Assembly: GCA_029884455.1 (NCBI GenBank)
Contig: JAOUHU010000002.1
Location: forward strand, 1-64,000
Reading direction: 5' to 3'
Source: Gammaproteobacteria bacterium
Lineage (GTDB): Bacteria > Pseudomonadota > Gammaproteobacteria > Steroidobacterales > Woeseiaceae
DNA length: 64,000 nucleotides
Within the stretch, counting starts at the first letter, position 1. Each line of letters opens with the position of its first letter. A program made the position numbers and the translations under genes. A model generated the notes under the pieces. It was not told where the DNA came from. It saw nothing but the letters and a program-made list of their open reading frames with translations, and made no database searches. Below, piece by piece: positions 52,877-55,036 of the stretch.

Positions 52877-55036
52877 ATGCAATACCTGAAACAAGGCCTG
52901 TCATTCCCGCGGTTACTGCCGTTGGCGGCAATTGCAGTAGCAATGGCCGGCTGTTCGCCGTCCGAGAATGCGACGCCGGCACAGACGCCGGGTGATACCG
53001 CCGTGCACACTGCCGAAGTATCGGCGGGTAGCGCTGGAGAGTTGATGGCGCAAGGCGAGGCGGTCTACCTCGCAAATTGCGCGGCTTGTCATCAGCCGAC
53101 GGGGCAGGGCCTGGCCGGCGCGTTTCCGCCGCTCGCCGGTTCCGATTTCCTCAAGGGAAATCGCAAGGACGTCATGGCCGCCGCATTGTTCGGCCTGTCG
53201 GGGCCGATTACCGTCAACGGTGTCGAGTACAACGGCGTCATGCCAAGCCTTGGTCATTTGCGAGATGAAGATCTCGCCGCCGCCCTGACCTACGTATTCG
53301 GCTCCTGGGGCAACGGTGGCGCTGCGGTCAGTGTGGCAGAAGTCGCTGCATTGCGTGCGGAGCTCGGGCAGCAAGACAGGGCCGCAGGCCAGCGGCACAT
53401 CGGCGCTACTGAAGGCGAGCTCAAGTACCAGGGTGCGCCATCGGCAATTTCAGCGGAAGACACGCGGCAAATCATGGCGGCCGGTGGCCCCATGCTGACG
53501 GAGGCCGAATTCGGTACTGCGACCAAGCTGTATTTCGAACGCTGCGCCGGTTGCCACGGTGTATTGCGCAAAGGCGCTACCGGCAAGCCGCTGACACCGG
53601 ACATCACGCAGGCCAAAGGTACCGACTACCTGAAAGCGCTGATCACTTACGGCTCTCCGGCCGGTATGCCGAACTGGGGTACCTCGGGTGATCTGACCGC
53701 TGCCGAGATCGACATCATGGCGCGCTTCCTGCAACAGGAACCACCGGCACCACCGGAATACGGCATGCCCGAGATGATGGCGAGCTGGAAAGTCATGGTT
53801 GCGCCGAACGATCGGCCGACCAGGCCGCAACACCAGCGCAATATCGAAAATTTCTTTTCGGTCACGCTGCGTGATGCCGGCAAGGTCGCGATCATCGACG
53901 GTGACACCAAGGAGGTTGTCAGCATTCTCCCGACCGGATATGCGGTACACATTTCACGCCCGTCCGCATCCGGCCGATACATGTTCACCATCGGGCGTGA
54001 CGCAAAAATCGACATGATCGATATGTGGATGAATCCGCCGGCCATTGTCGCTGAGATCAAGATCGGTCTCGAGGCGCGTTCAGTCGAGACGTCGAAGTAC
54101 AAGGGCTACGAGGACAAGTACGCGATCGCGGGAGCGTACTGGCCACCACAATACGTGGTCATGGACGGCGACACGCTCGAGCCGTTGAAAATCGTTTCGA
54201 CTCGAGGCATGACCGTGGATACGCAGGAGTACCATCCCGAGCCGCGTGTTGCGGCCATCGTCGCCTCGCACGAGCACCCGGAATTCATTGTCAACGTGAA
54301 AGAGACCGGGCACATACTGCTGGTGGATTACAGCGACGTCAACAGCCTGTCGGTAACCGATATCGGTGCGGCTAAATTCCTGCATGACGGCGGCTGGGAC
54401 CGCAGCAAACGCTACTTCCTGACCGCTGCAAACCAGTCCGACAAGATCGCTGTGGTCGATTCGCGGGATCGCGAGCTGGAGGCACTGGTTGACGTCACCA
54501 AGACACCGCACCCGGGTCGGGGCGCCAATATTGACGATCCAGGTTTCGGTCCGGTGTGGGTTACCAGTGCGTTGGGCAACGCAAATATTTCGTTTCTCGG
54601 CACTGACCCCGAAGGTCATCCCGGCAACGCCTGGAAAACCGTAAGGGTCCTCGACGGCATGGGCGGCGGTTCGCTGTTCGTCAAGTCGCACCCGAACTCC
54701 TCCAATCTCTGGGTCGATGCGCCGCTGAATCCTGACGAGTCAATCAGTCAGAGTATCGCCGTATTCGACATCAATAACCTTGACGCCGGCTTCGTCACGC
54801 TGCCGATCGCGGCGTGGGCGGACCTGGGTGAAGGCCCGAAGCGCGTCGTGCAGCCGGAATATAACAAGGCTGGCGACGAAGTCTGGTTCTCAGTCTGGAG
54901 CGGTAAGGAACAGGAATCTGCGATCGTTGTCGTCGATGACAAGACGCGCAAGCTGAAAGCCGTGATCAAGGGGCCGGAGATGATTACGCCAACAGGAAAG
55001 TTCAACGTTTACAATACGTTGAACGACATCTACTGA
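52877..55036 (+). CDS. nirS: Cytochrome cd1 nitrite reductase with additional N-terminal cytochrome c domain
   Basis: This 719-residue protein is a cd1 nitrite reductase (NO-forming). Standard NirS is about 560-600 residues with one c heme. Here residues about 50-150 form a second cytochrome c domain with CAACH (68-72), and the usual NirS c domain has CAGCH (223-227). The d1 propeller carries the proximal ligand in GYAVHISR (His358) and the two pocket histidines in FLHDGGWD (His503) and TPHPGRGA (His545); their spacing equals P. aeruginosa His182, 327 and 369. The end [11 protein letters not shown] matches NirS. The signal peptide ends AMAGC, a lipobox, so the enzyme may be anchored. The ribosome site is TAGGAGAG. 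No heme d1 synthesis genes are in the window. Confidence 0.92.

Follow-up and report, generated by a model that had tools for sequence, protein, structure and literature searches.

A three-domain cytochrome cd1 nitrite reductase encoded beside a heme-receptor-like TonB-dependent receptor, and the possible import of heme d1 by bacteria without known d1 genes

The gene nirS is a standard marker gene for denitrification. Its product in Pseudomonas aeruginosa (1nir, 1bl9, 5guw) combines a cytochrome c domain with a heme d1 propeller, and His182, His327 and His369 are named as key residues of NirS in the available text of one report (PMC8756737). The last steps of heme d1 formation (NirF/NirC, NirN) and the insertion of the cofactor into NirS are placed in the periplasm by the accessible portions of two further papers (PMC13168839; PMC3694632). 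A three-domain form, C1-C2-NirS, is known from Chloroflexi, where it lies away from a nir operon; the available text of Schwartz et al. 2022 states that it is unique to Chloroflexi (PMC8756737), and that of a 2024 NirS phylogeny names the fusion for Chloroflexi only (PMC10999283). Fusion of a c552-like domain to a nitrite reductase is also seen in the c-type copper nitrite reductases (2zoo, 3ziy). Scavenging of a cofactor through a TonB receptor is exemplified in Escherichia coli by PQQ, for which the receptor PqqU/YncD serves an apo glucose dehydrogenase. Among the heme receptors, PhuR is described in the accessible part of a review as binding heme by a His-Tyr motif (PMC12670364).

Here, we describe a locus from a gammaproteobacterium of the Woeseiaceae (assembly GCA_029884455.1) in which a three-domain NirS adjoins a TonB-dependent receptor of the PhuR type. 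The analysed DNA, called the window throughout, is a stretch of 64,000 nucleotides (contig JAOUHU010000002.1, positions 1 to 64,000). We present evidence that this pair of genes is linked across a widespread, mainly gammaproteobacterial group in which known heme d1 genes are absent, and we propose that heme d1 may be imported.

Architecture and distribution of the three-domain NirS

An intact open reading frame at 52877..55036 on the + strand, with AGGAGA immediately 5' of its ATG, encodes a NirS of 719 aa, identified by Pfam and by a fold match as a three-domain cytochrome c-cd1 nitrite reductase. Pfam models cover residues 58-140 (Cytochrom_C), 214-285 (Cytochrome_CBB3) and 322-714 (Cytochrom_D1, E 1e-146), all encoded on the + strand. 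The first of these, also defined by alignment, is an extra N-terminal class I cytochrome c domain (53048..53296) with CAACH at residues 68-72; the second is the standard NirS cytochrome c domain (53516..53731) with CAGCH at 223-227; and the third is the heme d1 propeller (53840..55018). The protein has the layout of a cytochrome cd1, a c-heme domain followed by a d1 propeller with one proximal and two active-site histidines, and an additional cytochrome c domain N-terminal to this C2-NirS gives it the C1-C2-NirS order. The match to P. aeruginosa NirS spans residues 183-719, that is, the second c domain and the propeller (E about 1e-261), and an offset of 176 that is constant through the d1 domain equates His358, His503 and His545 with His182, His327 and His369. 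These histidines are invariant in 44 aligned fused NirS and in the 107 NirS of the d1-domain comparison. Pfam and the alignment thereby bear out the preliminary description, which had called the protein a clear NirS with these histidines at the right spacing and an additional c-heme domain ahead of the CAGCH domain. The structure model (pLDDT 79 overall) places the second c domain and the propeller on solved NirS at 68% identity, and its confidence in the c domains is too low for heme distances to be judged. Second c domain, propeller and histidines are shared with the P. aeruginosa enzyme, whereas the extra domain, a lipobox, the lack of detectable d1 genes and an adjoining receptor gene set the window apart from it.

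The extra domain finds its best solved relatives in the c domains of three-domain copper nitrite reductases (2zoo, 6qpv, 3ziy), followed by Thermus c552, in keeping with the likeness proposed earlier; unlike in those enzymes, the homologous domain is here N-terminal, on an unrelated enzyme. In the 44 aligned of 70 fused NirS, Met122 is invariant and CAACH is invariant except in its second letter, so that a His-Met heme is likely in this domain, with Met122 as the likely second heme ligand. Electron delivery is a plausible role for the domain. The signal peptide (52877..52954, + strand) ends in a lipobox-like MAGC at Cys26 with Ser-Pro next, which marks the product as a putative lipoprotein, and close relatives have the same trait.

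A genome scan with the window NirS returned at least 588 relatives, and the best 80 loci were kept for analysis; with the window's own genome (G000) they make up the 81 regions considered below, in which L and G labels denote loci and genomes. An extra CxxCH lies in the NirS frame of 69 of these best 80 loci (of at least 588) and is missing from ten (L073-L082), and L071, whose frame is cut off and lacks its 5' part, is not countable as either; with G000 the fused set numbers 70. One fused nirS frame (L021) is only 614 aa long though its similarity reaches the end of the query, perhaps through an assembly frameshift. Carriers of the fused form include Woeseiaceae, Marinicella, Wenzhouxiangella, Lysobacterales, Steroidobacteraceae, Kangiella and Pseudidiomarina and, beyond Gammaproteobacteria, two Acidobacteria and one Verrucomicrobium among the best 80 of at least 588 loci. 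The three-domain NirS is not unique to Chloroflexi, which corrects the claim printed in the available text of PMC8756737. Domain order and a location away from a nir operon are common to the Chloroflexi proteins and those described here, whereas the fusion is here common in Gammaproteobacteria and is seen in Acidobacteria and Verrucomicrobiota.

Because a large clade carries it as the norm, the extra domain is no rare design, and a rare or private fusion was ruled out on these counts. The earlier idea of an uncommon, membrane-tethered and self-supplied NirS keeps its extra domain and its lipobox but loses its rarity, the domain proving standard among close NirS relatives and the lipobox a lineage trait. 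A strict lipobox pattern, which may miss some lipoboxes, occurs in 17 of the 70 fused NirS including the window's, and 13 of the 17 fall within the window's 20-row clade. Since the pattern is absent from the other 53, membrane tethering appears to be chiefly characteristic of the window's lineage rather than the purpose of the fusion. On a tree of 109 NirS cores, from which L071 and L110 (frame missed by the motif filter) are omitted, the fusion requires three state changes and the d1 genes eight. The neighbouring receptor and the absent heme d1 pathway are more unusual features of this locus than the extra domain or the lipobox.

Heme d1 genes and the receptor beside nirS

The window's genome, a MAG that is 89% complete, has no PF17805, the marker of NirDLGH; its best NirJ match scores 48 bits against a cut-off of 515, and a profile search for NirF or NirN gave nothing beyond a 21-bit propeller match. 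The nirFDLGHJ genes of a canonical nirS operon were thus not found in this genome. In a 99% complete genome of the same genus (G247), PF17805 is likewise lacking, and a search at 1e-60 gives only one D1 protein. PF17805 is present in 12 of the 81 genomes (G000 and the best 80 of at least 588). It is absent from 65 of the 70 fused-NirS genomes, the exceptions being L044, L049, L051, L054 and L067, and present in seven of the ten unfused loci, with L074, L076 and L077 lacking it; L071 is also without it. Among 51 genomes, NirJ and a second strong Cytochrom_D1 protein (NirF/NirN) occur in the same 11 as PF17805, and 40 have none of these. Nine of the NirJ matches exceed the cut-off, two more reach 363 and 370 bits, and the next scores 190; second D1 matches in the 40 d1-less genomes stay at or below 40 bits alone and 63 bits summed over the frame. 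As most genomes are MAGs, single gene absences may be gaps. Broken assembly was ruled out as the reason for the missing d1 genes, the picture being the same in G247 and in isolates, those named and d1-negative being Marinicella, Wenzhouxiangella, Pseudidiomarina, Dokdonella, Arenimonas and Lysobacter.

Ferrochelatase exceeds its cut-off in 41 of 44 genomes (of the rest, G026 scores too low, and G009 and G020 show no match at all), and the d1-less cells, 37 of 40 of which are among the positives, probably make ordinary heme. General heme auxotrophy therefore does not explain the receptor and was ruled out. Within the d1 domain, 149 of the 155 columns that are invariant in 36 NirS from d1-bearing genomes are kept (at least 97%) in 71 NirS from d1-less ones; the remaining six have the same majority residue, and none is fixed differently at 80% (L071, L110, L094 and L109 are omitted from this comparison). 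A d1 pocket under strong constraint in cells without means of making d1 is a paradox, which import would resolve.

The TonB-dependent receptor gene, of the PhuR/heme-receptor type, lies at 50633..52855 on the + strand and ends about 22 bp upstream of nirS; judged by eye, its true start is likely the ATG at 50669. An FNR-type box (at most two mismatches) was not found just upstream of it. The product has a barrel and plug and belongs to the heme-receptor sequence family: its nearest NCBIfam model is the heme/hemoglobin receptor TIGR01785 (316.0 bits, just below the cut-off of 316.85), PhuR leads the solved proteins by sequence (552.6 bits, next 180), and the five best fold matches of its AlphaFold model (pLDDT 87) are PhuR (E 4e-60), ChuA (three) and ShuA. 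The solved matches also include 9c4o/6v81, the E. coli receptor PqqU/YncD. Fold, sequence family and the FRAP and NPDL boxes are those of PhuR, ChuA and ShuA, whereas the nirS-side receptors form their own group and differ at two positions, the plug His and what we take to be, in PhuR residue numbers, the FRAP-loop ligand Tyr519. In the window's receptor these align with Thr140 and Asn511. Among the nirS-side members that have these segments (L036, L044 and the Haliea-type receptors lie outside the family), the His-Tyr axial ligands of PhuR were not found: the plug position is never His and the Tyr position always Asn. Since distant homologues also have Asn at the Tyr519 position, the substitution is no proof of a new ligand and is only compatible with another one; L146 has His at or near the plug position. 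Receptor homologues away from nirS occur in L148-L151, also without His at the PhuR plug position, and in L153-L158, genomes without NirS.

Clustering of all open reading frames in the 81 regions (best 80 of at least 588, plus G000) places TonB-dependent receptors in 67 of them and the next cluster in at most 31; the TonB cluster was formed by single linkage and also contains a few unlike TonB genes. Members of the receptor family (at least 600 bits) lie near nirS in 60 of 67 d1-less regions but in 0 of 12 d1-bearing ones, 79 of the 81 regions being judged, with L071 (5' part lacking) and L032 (upstream off the contig) left out and the d1 state of 30 of the genomes set by PF17805 only. Because the profile was built from these same nirS-side receptors, a match is given in advance for most positives; of the nirS-side matches in a chosen set of 73 genomes, only G247, G406, G422 and L024 lie outside it. 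Eight receptors were left out of the profile, and ten short or unrelated ones out of the trees. Clustering, which is free of the profile, leaves 10 of the 12 d1-bearing regions without any TonB gene close to nirS, the remainder having a distant TonB gene 3 kb from nirS (L044) and another 0.2 kb off (L073). The 60 receptor genes are found upstream on the same strand (31), upstream on the opposite strand (13), downstream on the same strand (11) and downstream on the opposite strand (5), with a median gap to nirS of 52.5 bp and a single gap above 400 bp.

Seven d1-less regions are without the receptor. Two of them, L027 and L041, have a fused NirS and lack both the d1 genes and any member of the receptor family; L036 and L050, a related fused pair, carry a different TonB receptor at the corresponding position next to nirS; and the Haliea-type L074, L076 and L077 have a NirS with a single c domain, no d1 gene found and a different TonB gene 0.5-2.1 kb off. 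The Haliea-type arrangement may be another answer to the same deficiency in d1. Its TonB genes were rejected as the same receptor, scoring, together with that of L073, 35-162 bits.

In the receptor tree, a branch with support of 100 separates 61 nirS-side receptors from 13 homologues found elsewhere, and the tree follows that of NirS (Mantel Spearman 0.67, 0/999 permutations, n=58). Bit score alone fails to separate the nirS-side receptors from paralogues, one of which reaches 806 bits, but trees and position do. Independent pairs differing in d1 state number four on supported branches and six on all; in paired contrasts, which omit L094, L109 and L122, the receptor behaves as expected in 2.7 on average, oppositely in 0 and without difference in 1.3 (median p 0.25). 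With so few independent contrasts, the Fisher p of 1e-9 for the regional comparison overstates independence. In the chosen 73 genomes, with up to 15 candidates scored per genome, at least 810 bits are reached by 21 of 24 d1-less fused cases (L036 has 483 and two have none), most of the 24 being in the profile. Among 37 d1-bearing NirS genomes, three reach 1e-70 (526-617 bits), in no case with a gene beside nirS, and none of the 3 Haliea-type or the 9 NirS-less genomes does.

An evenly drawn sample of 369 Gammaproteobacteria agrees with the association of the receptor and the lack of d1 genes. A Cytochrom_D1 protein (1e-60) is found in 74 and PF17805 in 71 (69 over the cut-off), and eight of the 74 are without PF17805. 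In five of these (G000, G247, G406, G412 and G422) the NirS frame measures 722-789 aa and is the sole D1 protein, that of G247 being judged by frame length alone; as for the others, G088 is 75% complete with a NirF-like gene, G399 has a NirF-sized protein only and G446 a weaker D1 match. With two candidates scored per genome, the five best receptor matches (811-1001 bits) come from exactly those five genomes and by their coordinates all adjoin nirS, and the sixth-best (764 bits) comes from a genome that lacks NirS. The profile includes the receptors of G000 and L045, the NirS of G412 is the same as that of L045, and G247, G406 and G422 are outside the profile. Among 30 fetched NirS loci, those of G406, G422 and G412 combine two CxxCH with all or part of the receptor next to nirS. 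A further 26, of which 25 are from PF17805 genomes and one is from G088, show a single CxxCH and, over the roughly 1.5 kb covered, no receptor; L109 did not score as NirS.

Downstream of nirS, and overlapping its stop by one base, a gene at 55036..56262 (+ strand) for a porin-like protein (Pfam Alginate_exp) is probably in the same operon; its cluster recurs in 31 of the 81 regions (best 80 of at least 588, plus G000). At 48553-50133 (+ strand) lies a hybrid histidine kinase/response regulator of the NahK/ErcS type (NF041832, 336 bits, cut-off 400), a family named for nitric oxide signalling, with a cluster found in 10 regions. Just upstream of the nirS region, a cbb3 oxidase cluster (40088-47489, - strand) comprises ccoN, FixO, CcoP-like and FixG-like proteins and a copper ATPase, parts of which are also found in L003, L004 and L006. 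The window further holds a gene for a 1295-aa HEAT-repeat protein with a secretion-like start (16191-20078, - strand) and phenylacetate degradation-like genes (20225-28270), of which a PaaZ-like Aldedh + MaoC protein was found and the rest were assigned by eye.

Import of heme d1 and its alternatives

The reading that we favour, with a probability of roughly 0.6, is that these bacteria take up heme d1 produced by other cells and load it into their periplasmic NirS; the ligand and the dependence on it are what we infer. Receptor and NirS would then constitute a two-gene nitrite reduction cassette running on a borrowed cofactor. An apo-NirS would receive its c hemes by the ordinary route, and the PhuR-like receptor would bring in heme d1 or one of its late precursors that other denitrifiers have released. 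Because insertion of heme d1 is periplasmic, passage through the outer membrane would suffice, without a transporter in the inner membrane. The extra N-terminal c domain would probably relay electrons to the standard c domain, replacing NirM/NirC. Under the Lol sorting rule, the Ser at +2 suggests that in the window's lineage a lipid anchor may keep NirS on the outer membrane, below the receptor. PQQ scavenging in E. coli resembles this scheme in joining a periplasmic apo-enzyme to a TonB receptor for a cofactor that the cell cannot make, but cofactor, receptor subfamily and pathway are others, and here both genes are neighbours. The behaviour of Wenzhouxiangella AB-CW3 cuts both ways for heme d1 import: according to the available text of PMC7691419, it encodes and expresses NirS and grows in pure culture with nitrate and N2O and not with nitrite, slowly reducing some nitrite and accumulating none from nitrate.

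Of the other readings, the one that survives best, unlikely as we hold it to be, is that heme d1 is made by a pathway without recognisable NirDLGH, NirJ and NirF, and that the receptor brings heme or iron for a heme-rich enzyme under common control. Unrelated d1 enzymes are compatible with an absence judged by homology, and a NirS with three hemes and an adjacent cbb3 oxidase cluster would together demand much iron; an iron-supply role does not, however, predict that the receptor is missing beside nirS where d1 genes are present (0/12), and the TonB cluster is the most widespread companion of nirS, in 67 of 81 regions against 31 at most for any other (best 80 of at least 588, plus G000). We consider it improbable that NirS binds another tetrapyrrole, imported or the cell's own heme b, and has a different activity. 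The heme-receptor type of the neighbouring receptor would fit such a change of cofactor, but a change of this kind should have left traces in the d1 domain, where no difference is fixed and 149 of the 155 invariant columns are kept along with the three active-site histidines. Least credible is passive linkage, with receptor and nirS travelling together on horizontally moved DNA and NirS without d1 a relic. The few independent switches of state speak for it, as does the scattered taxonomic occurrence of fused NirS, which extends to two Acidobacteria and one Verrucomicrobium, though none of the three has the receptor beside nirS; strong NirS conservation and a linkage kept through four gene arrangements speak against it and argue for selection on the pair.

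Taking heme d1 import to the scale of the group, we hold it likely, with a shade less assurance, that a widespread, mainly gammaproteobacterial group consists of heme d1 auxotrophs that obtain the d1 leaked by complete denitrifiers via a dedicated TonB receptor encoded beside nirS. Among the titles and abstract openings of open-licence papers we found no proposal of a heme d1 receptor, and the one made here may be the first. If it is true, denitrification would include cofactor trade or piracy, and the occurrence of nirS without a nir cluster would be explained. Furthermore, nirS counts would overstate the number of self-sufficient nitrite reducers, and the activity of this clade would depend on its neighbours.
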